Positions 58,320 through 64,000 of a stretch of DNA of 64,000 nt are shown here, piece by piece (position 1 is the first letter of the stretch; every line of letters starts with the position of its first letter). The position numbers and the translations under genes are program-made. This DNA is from Bacteroidota bacterium (GTDB lineage: Bacteria > Bacteroidota > Bacteroidia > Flavobacteriales > Flavobacteriaceae): assembly GCA_024280635.1 (NCBI GenBank), contig JAJRPS010000065.1, forward strand, positions 76,602 through 140,601, read 5' to 3'. The notes beneath the pieces are model-generated. The model made no database searches. It worked only from the letters and a program-made list of their open reading frames with translations, and had not been told where the DNA came from.

Positions 58320-59813
58320 TTAGTTAAAAATAATAGCTTGATATGCACCAATATCCGATGTACCAATGGGTCTAACGGTATTGATAATGTCATTAAAAGA
58401 TGGTGTTAGATCTATTGCGGTATTATTTGCAGGCGAAGTGTTTTCTTCAATATTAAAATCATTATGATAAGCATCTTTAAAAATGGGGTCTTGATTTAAA
58501 ATATTATTCTCAAAAATATTAATATCACTAAAATTGTATAAAGGATCATTGGAAAACTGATTATTAAAATCGTTAAAATGCAATAAGCAATTGATGAATT
58601 TGTAGTTAAATGCTGCGCTATTTTCTTTTTCCAAAGTAAATTCTAAATTTTCACTACCGTAAACAATACAATTAGTAAAATTAGCTTGCAGTAAATCAGA
58701 AATAAGTAAAGTGTTGCCGTTTGCTAAAGCATTACTGACAACCAAAGTAGGAAAAGAACGATTGCTGCTGTTCCAATAATTTGCAAAAGTACAGTGTGTA
58801 AAATTATAAGTACCTCCTAAAGTAAGTGCAATACTTGCTTGTCCGCAATTATTAGCTACAATATTTTTGCCTTCTATATTACCATTAAAAGCAAATAAAG
58901 CATTTACTGAATGGTTGTATAACTGTGTATTGGTAATGGTTGTGGTTAAATCACCATCATTACCATCACTTCTAATACCAATAGTTGCATTTTTAATGGT
59001 TACATGGTCAAAAATATTATTGGTGCTACCTTCTTGCAGCCAAATGGTACCCCATTGTCCAGGAATATTATTGTAAGGTGCTTCTAGACGATCACCTTCA
59101 AAAATTATTTCATTTTCTAAAAGCGTTTGGTCTGTACTAATGTTTCCATCAGCAAGTATTGTTGCACCGTTTGTTACAATTAACCCAGAATTACGATGAA
59201 AATGAATACGCGCACCAGCATCAATAGTTAGGGTTTGTCCTGTAGGTACTTTAGGGAAACCATAAATAACATACGGTTTGATATTGGTAAAGTGTAATTG
59301 AGCGGGAGTCAATTCAAAATCATTTAATTCGCCGTCATTTAAAGTAGCAGGAAAAATAAATTCGGCATCTTTTACTAAGGTGACTAATTTTACATCTTGG
59401 TAGTGTAAATTAGCATCAAATATAATAGAATCTTTGTATAAAAACTCGGTAGCAGTAGTGGTGTAATCTAAAATATCAACGGTAGTTTCTACAAAAATAT
59501 ACAAACTATCTTTTGCCTTGACTTCTATGTTTTGAAAGCTTTTACCTGTAATACCATCTACTAATAATCTAAAATTAGAATTATCACCTCTTCCTAATGT
59601 AATGGTAGGGATATGAATGTCATCATTACTCGTATTATAAACTTTTAAATTATAGGTGCTAGAACCAATATTGGTGAAAATAGTGTCTAACAAAACGGTA
59701 TCTTTAGAAAAACGAAGATTGCCAGTACTAGCTGTGGTACTAAAATCTTTTCTACAAGACCCTAAACCAATAACAAAACCAACAAGTAAAACGGTAACAA
59801 TAAGGTTGCGCAT
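58320..59813 (-). CDS. lipoprotein with right-handed parallel beta-helix
   Basis: LGSCRKDFS lipobox, repetitive beta-helix (GIRSDGNDGDLTTTITNTQLYNHSVNALFAFNGN), terminal TSDIGAYQ. Confidence 0.75.
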   Translation of the reverse strand: MRNLIVTVLLVGFVIGLGSCRKDFSTTASTGNLRFSKDTVLLDTIFTNIGSSTYNLKVYNTSNDDIHIPTITLGRGDNSNFRLLVDGITGKSFQNIEVKAKDSLYIFVETTVDILDYTTTATEFLYKDSIIFDANLHYQDVKLVTLVKDAEFIFPATLNDGELNDFELTPAQLHFTNIKPYVIYGFPKVPTGQTLTIDAGARIHFHRNSGLIVTNGATILADGNISTDQTLLENEIIFEGDRLEAPYNNIPGQWGTIWLQEGSTNNIFDHVTIKNATIGIRSDGNDGDLTTTITNTQLYNHSVNALFAFNGNIEGKNIVANNCGQASIALTLGGTYNFTHCTFANYWNSSNRSFPTLVVSNALANGNTLLISDLLQANFTNCIVYGSENLEFTLEKENSAAFNYKFINCLLHFNDFNNQFSNDPLYNFSDINIFENNILNQDPIFKDAYHNDFNIEENTSPANNTAIDLTPSFNDIINTVRPIGTSDIGAYQAIIFN

Positions 59814-59962: not shown

Positions 59963-59993
59963 TTTGCTATTGTAAACTTTGTGAATATCTTTG
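59963..59993 (+). promoter_or_regulatory. canonical Bacteroidota housekeeping promoter for ppx/gppA
   Basis: TTTG (59963-59966), exactly 19 nt, TATCTTTG (59986-59993); matches TTTG-N19-TAnnTTTG. Confidence 0.75.
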
Positions 59994-60092
59994 AGAGTCT
60001 ATAAAAATAGAAAGAAAGATCCATTATTTTTCAAGGAGAAATACGATGTATATTATATAAAAAAAAACTCCCATTTTAGAGTGAGTATTGTT

Positions 60093-60980
60093 ATGAAAAT
60101 AAAAAAATACGCTGCCATTGATATTGGTTCTAATGCTGTAAGAATGCTAATAACTAATGTTATTGAAGAGGAAAAACAAATGCCTAAATTTAAAAAAAAT
60201 GCCTTGATACGAGTTCCTATTCGTTTGGGTGCAGACGCTTTTACTACGGGTATTATTACGGAAGCAAACATCATTAAAATGAAAGATACCATGCGTGCTT
60301 TTAAATTATTGATGAAATCTTATGAAGTAGAAAAATACATGGCATGTGCCACTTCTGCAATGCGAGAAGCTGTAAATGGAGCGGATGTTGTTGCTCAAAT
60401 TAAAGCAGAATGTGCTATAGATATTGAAGTTATTGATGGTAAAAAGGAAGCAGCTATAATTGCGTCTACCGATTTAAAAACCTTTATAGAAAAAGGTAAA
60501 ACCTATATTTATGTTGATGTAGGTGGAGGAAGTACTGAGTTTACCGTATTTTCAGATGGAAAAATAGTAAATTCAAAATCCTTTAAAATAGGTACAGTAC
60601 GTTTTTTAAATAAAACAGTAGATAAAAATATTTGGGAAGATATTAAAAAATGGGTAAAACAAAACACCAAGCATTATGATGCGGTAACCATGATAGGATC
60701 TGGAGGAAATATTAATAAAATTCATAAACTTTCTGGTCGTACTAATGACAAACCATTGTCTTACATATTTTTAAATGCACAATATCACTTTTTTAACGCG
60801 ATGACGTATAAAGAGCGAGTAACTGATTTTGGTTTAAATCCTGACAGAGCTGATGTTATTATTCCGGCACTTAAAATATACTTAAAAGCAATGAAATGGA
60901 GTGGGGCTAAAAAAGTATATGTACCCAAAATTGGATTATCAGATGGTATTGTGAAAACGTTGTATTATGCAGATAAATAA
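60093..60980 (+). CDS. Ppx/GppA phosphatase family protein
   Basis: MKIKKYAAIDIGSNAVRMLI, ACATSAMREA, YIYVDVGGGSTEFTV, GSGGNINKI. Start moved downstream of the promoter from ORF-track 59991. Confidence 0.92.
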   Translation: MKIKKYAAIDIGSNAVRMLITNVIEEEKQMPKFKKNALIRVPIRLGADAFTTGIITEANIIKMKDTMRAFKLLMKSYEVEKYMACATSAMREAVNGADVVAQIKAECAIDIEVIDGKKEAAIIASTDLKTFIEKGKTYIYVDVGGGSTEFTVFSDGKIVNSKSFKIGTVRFLNKTVDKNIWEDIKKWVKQNTKHYDAVTMIGSGGNINKIHKLSGRTNDKPLSYIFLNAQYHFFNAMTYKERVTDFGLNPDRADVIIPALKIYLKAMKWSGAKKVYVPKIGLSDGIVKTLYYADK

Positions 60981-61387: not shown

Positions 61388-61972
61388 TTACCCGTGAACG
61401 GTTTCTTTAGCACCCAAATTTTTCATTATTTCAGCTTCATAAACTAATAAGTCGTCCCATTTTTGATTAACTTCCTTTAAATCATCACCATATTGACGTG
61501 CAAACTTTAAAAACATGGTGTAGTGGTTGGCTTCACTAACCATTAATTTACGGTAAAACTCAGCCAATTTTTTGTCGGATAATTCTTCAGATAATAGTCT
61601 GAAACGCTCGCAACTACGTGCTTCAATTAAAGCGGCATATAGCAGGCGGTGTACCAATTGTGTGTTTCGGCTCCCGCCTTTAGGAAAAAATTTGATTAGT
61701 TGAATTACGTAATCATCTTTACGGTCACGCCCCAAAGTTTCTCCACGAGCAATAATTAGATCATGTACCATTTTAAAATGGCTCATTTCTTCTTTTACTA
61801 AACTGGTCATTTCCTGTACTAGCTCTGTATATTCAGGAAACCCTACAATTAAAGAAATAGCGGTACTGGTTGCTTTTTGCTCACAAAAGGCGTGATCAGT
61901 AAGTATTTCACTAATGTTTTTTTCTACAATGTTTACCCATCTTGGGTCAGTTGGTAATTTTAATCCTAGCAT
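61388..61972 (-). CDS. miaE: tRNA-(ms[2]io[6]A)-hydroxylase (MiaE)
   Basis: DHAFCEQKATSTAISLI, LVKEEMSHFKMVHDLI, ALIEARSCERFRLLSEEL, MVSEANHYTMFLKFA di-iron motifs. Confidence 0.94.
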   Translation of the reverse strand: MLGLKLPTDPRWVNIVEKNISEILTDHAFCEQKATSTAISLIVGFPEYTELVQEMTSLVKEEMSHFKMVHDLIIARGETLGRDRKDDYVIQLIKFFPKGGSRNTQLVHRLLYAALIEARSCERFRLLSEELSDKKLAEFYRKLMVSEANHYTMFLKFARQYGDDLKEVNQKWDDLLVYEAEIMKNLGAKETVHG

Positions 61973-61982
61973 GATTAATGTT

Positions 61983-62393
61983 TTATTTAATAGTTATTCC
62001 GTTTTCTTGAAATACTTTTTTAAAATTTTCTATTTCTTCATAATTTTTAAAAGTAGTATGTATATCACGATTTTTGTTGCTTTTTAAACGAATACTGAAA
62101 CGTTTTCGTCCCAGTAACGTATGTTCTTTTAAATATGCAATATCTTGTAATTTTATTTCTTTGGAGTATGTTTTTTTATAAACAGATACTATGAGTATCC
62201 CGATTGCTATGATTGCTAAAAAGAAAAAGAAAGGAGTAATTCCATTAAAACCATCTTTTTTATAATGATTGAAAGTCATTAAACTTAGCGCGATAGTGTT
62301 TATGATTCGTAAAAGTAGATAAATTTTTTTAAAATTATTAATTTCATCATTAATGATGAAACTATTGTTTTCAGAATTATATTTTACAAGCAT
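61983..62393 (-). CDS. hypothetical PH-like membrane protein
   Basis: Two TMs, C-terminal basic region; encoded between miaE and dnaX. Confidence 0.55.
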   Translation of the reverse strand: MLVKYNSENNSFIINDEINNFKKIYLLLRIINTIALSLMTFNHYKKDGFNGITPFFFFLAIIAIGILIVSVYKKTYSKEIKLQDIAYLKEHTLLGRKRFSIRLKSNKNRDIHTTFKNYEEIENFKKVFQENGITIK

Positions 62394-62396
62394 AAT

Positions 62397-64000
62397 TTAT
62401 AATAAATCCAACCCAAACTCTTGCTGTAAGCGTCCTAAAGGTGGATATTTTTCTTTTAAATTATTAAATATTTCCGATTCGGTATATACATATTTTTTTT
62501 CTACCGTTTCGTTTACTTCTATGTTGATGTGAATGTCATAGTTTTGTAGTTTTTTACGTAATTCTAGTAATAACGGACCCTGAGCGCGTTCCAATTGAAT
62601 ACGCATGGAATCATTAGGGAAAATTAAGTTAATGGCAGTTCCCTCAATTCTGGGACTATCAATTTCTAAAATGGAAGCTAATATTTGCTCTCCATCTTTA
62701 CGAAGTTGATGAGTGTAGTTATTCCATATTTTCATTAAGTCGGATACCTTAAAAGCTTCTGTAGGTAAATTAACGTGTACTTTTTCTTCTGCTTGCTTAG
62801 CGGCTAAGTGTTCTTTTTTTTGACGAAGACTAGCGAGTGATAATCCAGATGATTTCCGATTATCATCAACCTTCATTTTAGGAATAATAATCTTTTTTTC
62901 TGCTACAATTGGAGTAGGAGGTAGTAGTGTAGTGCTTTTAGACGTTGTTGTAAGCGTTGTGTTTGAAGCTTCTTTTTTAGCATCTGTTTTAGCCGTTGTA
63001 CTAATAAAAAAGGTTGCAGGAATTATAAAGTTTTTAGACTTTTTTTTTTCTCCATCAAATGTGATGGAAGCCAATTGCATTAAAGTTAATTCAACTAATA
63101 ATCGTTGATTTTTACTGCTTTTATATTGTAAATCACACTGATTGGCTTTTTCAATTCCTTGTATTAAAAAGGCGACTGCTGTTTGTTGGCATTGCGCTGC
63201 GTATTGTGCCTTTGCTTTTTCGCCCACTTCTAATAAACTAATGGTTACAGCATCTTTACAAACTAATAAATCTCTAAAATGACTTGCTAAACCGGCTATA
63301 AAATGATGACCGTCAAATCCTTTTGATAAACATTCATTAAACAATACCAATAACTCAGGTATTTTATTATTAAGTATTAAGTCAGTTGCTGTAAAATAAG
63401 TATCGTAATCTAAAACGTTTAGGTTTTCAGTTACCGCTTGTCTGGTCAAGTTTTTACCACAAAAACTAACTACTCTATCAAAAATAGAAAGGGCATCACG
63501 CATTGCACCATCAGCTTTTTGGGCTATAATATGTAAGGCATCATCTTCTGCTTCAACACCTTGTTCTTTTGCTATATATGCTAAATAATTAGCAGCATCC
63601 TTTACGGTAATACGTTTAAAATCAAAAATTTGGCAACGTGATAATATGGTAGGGATGATTTTATGTTTCTCAGTAGTTGCTAAAATAAATATAGCGTGTT
63701 TAGGCGGTTCTTCTAAAGTCTTTAAAAAAGCATTAAAAGCTGCAGATGATAGCATGTGTACCTCATCAATAATGTAGACTTTATAATTACCTACTTGTGG
63801 CGGTATGCGTACTTGTTCAATTAAACTTCTAATGTCATCAACTGAGTTATTGGATGCAGCATCTAGCTCAAAAATATTAAAGGCAAAATCTTCATTTTCA
63901 TCATGATGTTCTTGCTGATTAATTTGTTTGGCTAAAATACGTGCGCAAGAGGTTTTACCTACACCACGAGGACCACAAAATAAAAGGGCTTGTGCCAAAT
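62397..64000 (-). CDS. dnaX: DNA polymerase III subunit gamma/tau (5' end beyond window)
   Basis: LAQALLFCGPRGVGKTSCARILAKQIN Walker A, VYIIDEVHMLSSAAFNAFLKTLEEPPKHAIFILATTEKHKIIPTILSRCQIFDFKRI. Confidence 0.96.
   Translation of the reverse strand, partial: LAQALLFCGPRGVGKTSCARILAKQINQQEHHDENEDFAFNIFELDAASNNSVDDIRSLIEQVRIPPQVGNYKVYIIDEVHMLSSAAFNAFLKTLEEPPKHAIFILATTEKHKIIPTILSRCQIFDFKRITVKDAANYLAYIAKEQGVEAEDDALHIIAQKADGAMRDALSIFDRVVSFCGKNLTRQAVTENLNVLDYDTYFTATDLILNNKIPELLVLFNECLSKGFDGHHFIAGLASHFRDLLVCKDAVTISLLEVGEKAKAQYAAQCQQTAVAFLIQGIEKANQCDLQYKSSKNQRLLVELTLMQLASITFDGEKKKSKNFIIPATFFISTTAKTDAKKEASNTTLTTTSKSTTLLPPTPIVAEKKIIIPKMKVDDNRKSSGLSLASLRQKKEHLAAKQAEEKVHVNLPTEAFKVSDLMKIWNNYTHQLRKDGEQILASILEIDSPRIEGTAINLIFPNDSMRIQLERAQGPLLLELRKKLQNYDIHINIEVNETVEKKYVYTESEIFNNLKEKYPPLGRLQQEFGLDLL

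Follow-up and report, generated by a model that had tools for sequence, protein, structure and literature searches.

A conserved A10 tract in a Flavobacteriaceae dnaX gene, a candidate site of hairpin-aided slippage between gamma and tau

Does the dnaX gene of this member of the Flavobacteriaceae specify a single subunit of DNA polymerase III, or could slippage on an uninterrupted run of ten A residues yield both tau and a shorter gamma-like form? We addressed this question in the window, by which we mean the whole 64,000-nucleotide stretch of DNA that was analysed, and in dnaX genes of related bacteria.

The dnaX site in the window

The 5′ part of dnaX lies outside the window, and the full 570-aa tau was taken from locus L031. 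The TIGR02397 (dnaX_nterm) model matches the window DnaX with 330.9 bits (cut-off, 250) and ends at residue 309 of the fragment, while the A10 run begins at about residue 316. The minus strand reads GAT GGA GAA AAA AAA AAG TCT AAA AAC TTT ATA ATT at the tract. Two statements of the earlier note, namely that an A10 run lies on the dnaX minus strand (63049-63040) and that it sits just after DnaX domain III, are thus borne out. No other A10 occurs in the window, whereas dinucleotide shuffles lead one to expect 14.7 ± 6.4, which indicates that long A runs are avoided in this stretch and makes the dnaX run conspicuous. The draft genome (1.9 Mb) holds some dozens of A10 matches, many of them overlapping inside longer runs; at four other loci of this genome, an A10 lies in or at the edge of a long reading frame, without a hairpin. 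Among the neighbors of dnaX, 61388-61972 corresponds to MiaE and 59991-60980 to Ppx/GppA, and the open reading frames at 61983-62393 and 58320-59813 (both on the minus strand) have no Pfam match.

Table 1. Features of the dnaX site, in window coordinates
Feature	Position	Strand	Basis
dnaX, DNA polymerase III gamma/tau subunit	62397..63998	-	TIGR02397, Pfam PF13177, PF22608
Candidate RNA hairpin touching the A run, UUCCAUCA-CAUU-UGAUGGAG, 8 pairs, loop of 4	63050..63069	-	fold z -2.1
A10 slippery tract, GAA AAA AAA AAG	63040..63049	-	sequence read, conserved in relatives
TAA closing +1 A / -2 A transcripts, also -1 ribosomal shifts; predicted gamma of ~358 aa	63034..63036	-	
TAA closing -1 A / +2 A transcripts; predicted gamma of ~361 aa	63023..63025	-	
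tau-specific linker and C-terminal domain, frame 0 in the window	62397..63039	-	

Counted from the true start outside the window, mRNAs with 10 or 13 A would encode a tau of 570 or 571 aa, respectively. The off-frame stops lie 3 nt (A11 and A8) and 14 nt (A9 and A12) behind the run, so that both other frames do close nearby, as had been proposed; transcripts with 11 or 8 A are predicted to yield 358 or 357 aa, ending in GEKKKV or GEKKV, and transcripts with 9 or 12 A to yield 361 or 362 aa. The equation of a lost A with -1 slippage, also made in the earlier note, needs correcting, as the reverse holds for the ribosome: a -1 ribosomal shift on A_AAA_AAG has the same effect as the addition of an A to the transcript (AAA GTC TAA), and a +1 shift the same effect as the loss of one. 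With tau in frame 0, the window gene does not have the two-ORF arrangement of the type described by Antonov et al. (2013).

Run, stops, and tau frame in relatives

The comparison drew on dnaX genes from 199 genomes, namely relatives, a representative of each genus in the family, and then samples of the order, class, and phylum. The set was reduced to distinct loci, of which 178 were good matches to the window DnaX, mostly from the class, and 173 could be scored for frames; many of these genes are related, and their counts are not independent. A run of at least A9 lies just behind domain III in 168 of the 178 genes (sampled mainly from the class), comprising 15 A9, 129 A10, 22 A11, and a single gene each with A12 and A13. 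Such a run is found in every codon phase, ahead of G, T, or C alike, and even where genomic GC reaches 60-65%, and is therefore explained neither by the amino acids that it encodes nor by base composition. Moreover, AAA accounts for all 397 of the Lys codons within the runs, where ∼112 AAG would be expected from the usage of the same genes. It had been suggested to look for relatives that break the run with synonymous AAG or GAG codons, and the opposite was found. The A10 is identical in over a hundred genera, single-contig genomes included.

No run of at least A9 was seen in 10 of the 178 genes, and the Bacteroidaceae and Prevotella records of the named set are likewise without an A run. Ten loci without the run are of the Bacteroides/Prevotella type; in its stead, several of them have in common a brief stretch resembling TAAAACCC-ATTTAA. 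Outside the class, A9 or A10 runs occur in four loci, mostly with some hairpin in front, and one of these (L247) is a split gene with tau in the -1 frame.

In 148 of the 173 genes, a pool restricted to runs of eight or more A, a stop ends each of the two off-frames no more than 20 nt behind the run, as against 32.4 ± 4.7 genes under a null of synonymous recoding and 18-24 genes at downstream control positions. Each off-frame is also enriched separately in the genes with tau in frame 0 (116 vs 56 and 128 vs 76), and closure near the run holds whichever frame tau occupies. The flanking stops have thus been kept in relatives despite synonymous freedom, as the proposal of a switch had anticipated.

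Tau occupies frame 0 in 132 of the 173 genes, the -1 frame in 37, and the +1 frame in 4. A -1 split needs one extra A, and a +1 split needs one A fewer or two more; with three more +1 cases among 80 named records, seven genes in total need a +1-type shift. In the 41 genes whose tau C terminus lies in another frame, recoding is needed for any tau to be made. From the run onward, these split genes are open in the tau frame, which often begins with the [FY]IIP motif, as it does in unsplit genes; in 38 of the 41, its first 15 codons include no start codon. The tau frame must therefore be reached from upstream, and internal initiation of the tau C terminus was rejected on these grounds. The split state is pervasive in the genus of genome G135, probably Flavobacterium to judge from the match of its site sequence to named Flavobacterium records, where 64 of 68 dnaX genes are split, all at A10 and with tau in the -1 frame. 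In this genus, standard annotation will probably present dnaX as a truncated gamma accompanied by an orphan ORF for the C terminus.

Changes between the split and unsplit states, counted on an IQ-TREE tree of the DnaX N-terminal part, number at least 28. When branches below 80 are collapsed, at least 24 remain, and raising the threshold to 95 leaves at least 10. With the labels shuffled, 34-42 changes are obtained, which indicates that the split state follows descent only loosely. Flavobacterium sp. YO12 has A9 with tau in +1, and F. denitrificans has A10 with tau in -1, in nearly identical flanks; three species of one other genus show A11 with -1, A10 with +1, and A10 with -1. Bidirectional slippage could readily accommodate such flips of direction between near relatives, which would be difficult for a ribosomal signal that acts in one direction.

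The 5′ hairpin and the agent of slippage

The hairpin that touches the run went unmentioned in the earlier note. Folding of the 60 nt 5′ of the run is more stable than that of shuffled sequences, with a mean z of -1.31 in the family and a z of -3.1 in the window. In the 173 genes, again the pool selected for eight or more A, the best hairpin whose end falls no more than 4 nt from the run averages -5.55 kcal/mol, a value never attained by 25 synonymous recodings, which average -2.46 ± 0.14; control positions give -0.9 to -2.9. In 104 genes far from the family consensus, the hairpin still averages -4.16 vs -2.39 ± 0.19 for the null, with stems that are unrelated in sequence, e.g. CUCUCCU/AGGAGAG or CAUCUUCU/AGAAGAUG, and two-sided pair changes in the aligned family set number 24 vs at most 19 in 500 shuffles. 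Judged by these comparisons of sequence, the hairpin is selected beyond the synonymous expectation and has been rebuilt from different sequence in other lineages. A comparable hairpin was found at none of 15 distinct runs of at least A10 sampled elsewhere in the same genome, intergenic runs included. About one-third of the run-bearing genes have no clear hairpin, which indicates that it is not essential everywhere. In an exploratory comparison (the L032-L247 sample), the hairpin was strongest with A10 and tau in frame 0 and weaker with A9, with A11, and in split genes; there is perhaps a trade-off between run length, hairpin, and the level of slippage that is required.

We put the probability that programmed transcriptional slippage makes both gamma and tau from one dnaX gene at roughly 0.8. 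RNA polymerase copying the T10 template would hold an all-A RNA in its hybrid, and realignment of this RNA would yield mRNAs with more or fewer A; the hairpin would fold in the RNA exit channel as the hybrid turns all A:T and thereby promote realignment. Transcripts with 10 or 13 A would then be translated into tau, and those of other lengths would run into a stop no more than 3 or 14 nt on, leaving a gamma that consists of the clamp-loader domains I-III only. We infer that it is the polymerase, rather than the ribosome, that slips and that the hairpin acts on the polymerase, and both gamma and tau proteins would exist in this organism. The gamma-like form made by slippage that had been envisaged for this lineage is supported by the conservation of run, stops, and codons. 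Between the two routes to it that had been named, the comparison of relatives favors slippage by the polymerase over a -1 ribosomal shift on A_AAA_AAG.

The ribosomal route, by which -1 programmed frameshifting would make gamma here and tau in the two-ORF relatives, appears unlikely to us. It can draw on a frame-0 A_AAA_AAG in the window with a -1 stop one codon on, as for E. coli gamma, and on the G that follows the run in 64 of 68 genes of the Flavobacterium-like genus, so that a -1 ribosomal shift could take place in both; further, GGAG lies immediately 5′ of the run in 64 of the 173 genes. However, a frame-0 A_AAA_AAG is present in only 35 of the 173, the base after the run being free (T in 86, G in 54, C in 35), and the run exceeds what a heptamer needs by 3-4 A. 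The +1 off-frame is closed as well, and seven genes require a shift of the +1 type. Two candidate ribosomal stimulators were considered and rejected. As for downstream RNA structure, no 3′ stem-loop was seen, the 60 nt behind the run in the window folding at -2.3 kcal/mol (z +1.2) with a family mean z of -0.22; as for a Shine-Dalgarno sequence, the GGAG is the 3′ arm of the hairpin, stands 3 nt from the heptamer, and is absent from many lineages. Transcriptional slippage is thus favored by the length of the run, the closure of the +1 off-frame, the occurrence of both shift directions, the free next base, and structure that is 5′ rather than 3′. Nondirectional sliding of ribosomes on poly(A) Lys codons, which is robust on A11 in vitro with E. 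coli ribosomes and ends at out-of-frame stops (PMC4363877), would make both off-frames count and is a possible contributor. As the source of the off-frame products in its own right we regard it as quite improbable, because it leaves the selected 5′-abutting hairpin unexplained and a translating ribosome would have melted that hairpin.

Two further readings dispense with recoding altogether, and we give next to no credence to either. Were the run there only to encode a conserved basic KKK patch, with the A10 arising from AT-rich codon usage, the Lys-rich translation in all phases and the AT-richness of most relatives would follow; the complete lack of AAG (summed log10 P = -81.6) and the A10 in genomes of GC 0.60-0.65 speak against this, the off-frame stops and the frame-split genes are left unexplained, and the 41 of 173 genes whose tau is unreadable without recoding contradict it. 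Errors in sequencing or assembling homopolymers, or phase variation by replication slippage, could cause differences in length and frame, as homopolymers are error-prone and several of the genomes are drafts. Yet the same A10 recurs across genera and in single-contig genomes, the same shift direction is needed in 37 of the 41 split genes, these genes retain off-frame stops of their own, and a split state at A10 is shared by 64 of 68 genes of one genus. Loss of tau through phase variation is, moreover, implausible for a subunit of the replicase.

Wider reading and comparison with known systems

Taking the relatives together, we consider it likely that hairpin-assisted slippage of the polymerase on A10 sets gamma and tau in almost the whole of Bacteroidia (with losses in parts of Bacteroidales), that the tau frame drifts freely and has switched many times, and that nearly all members of a Flavobacterium-like genus would be without tau if slippage did not occur. 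Because slippage would supply every frame, indels in the run would be nearly neutral and the genomic tau frame free to drift, a rule that the many frame switches fit. If this is so, recoding is an ancient and ordinary part of how a large bacterial class assembles its replication machinery, not confined to Thermus and E. coli, and a conserved housekeeping gene offers natural sites with hairpin plus A10 for the study of polymerase slipping. Annotation pipelines will label many such dnaX genes as truncated or split, and a difference of one base in run length, which alters the annotation call, would probably leave the proteins unaltered.

The kind of switch is already known, given the published slippage in Thermus and the published two-ORF dnaX genes with A10. 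For the hairpin, the class-wide conservation of the run in unsplit genes, and the repeated frame switching, no description was found in the literature searched, where overlap with Larsen et al. (2000), Penno et al. (2015), or the supplement of Antonov et al. is possible. With E. coli dnaX, which makes gamma by -1 ribosomal frameshifting, the window shares the gene and the predicted outcome, and an A_AAA_AAG is present in it, though in frame 0 in only 35 of 173 relatives; the E. coli features missing here are the 3′ stem-loop, a Shine-Dalgarno sequence at the E. coli spacing (∼10 nt 5′), and a heptamer conserved in the class.

Antonov et al. (2013; PMC3711429) listed 17 two-ORF dnaX genes with A7-A10, nine of them with A10, and suggested transcriptional realignment. 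Common to those genes and to split relatives of the window gene (41 of 173) is an A10 at a -1 transition between the gamma part and the tau part, whereas the window gene itself has tau in frame 0. The Antonov genes are all of the -1 type, and no hairpin is mentioned in the text consulted; the class sampled here also has +1 splits and repeated switching.

A close likeness is that to Thermus thermophilus dnaX, where transcriptional slippage at A9 gives mixed mRNAs (Larsen et al. 2000, reviewed in PMC5009743 and PMC1088944). Both share (i) the gene, (ii) an A run in the tau frame, at least nine A long and behind the clamp-loader domains, (iii) nearby stops in both other frames, and (iv) a gamma from slipped mRNAs, which is predicted here. 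They differ in that Thermus has A9 and the window A10, directly after domain III; in that a conserved 5′ hairpin is present here and none is mentioned for Thermus in PMC5009743 or PMC1088944; and in that, in many relatives of the window gene, tau itself would be the slipped product, unlike in Thermus. For the hairpin, the counterpart is an IS630-type element of Roseiflexus, in which slippage is mediated by a nascent-RNA stem-loop (Penno et al. 2015, per PMC5009743). That stem-loop stands directly 5′ of the slippage motif, just as the 8-bp hairpin at 63069-63050 abuts the run, and is proposed to act on the polymerase like a terminator hairpin; by analogy, slippage at the dnaX site is probably aided by its nascent-RNA hairpin. 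The Roseiflexus motif is T5C5 and gives a one-base deletion only, whereas the window has A10 in a housekeeping gene and shifts in both directions are expected. The dnaX site thus unites an A run of the Thermus type with a hairpin of the Roseiflexus type.
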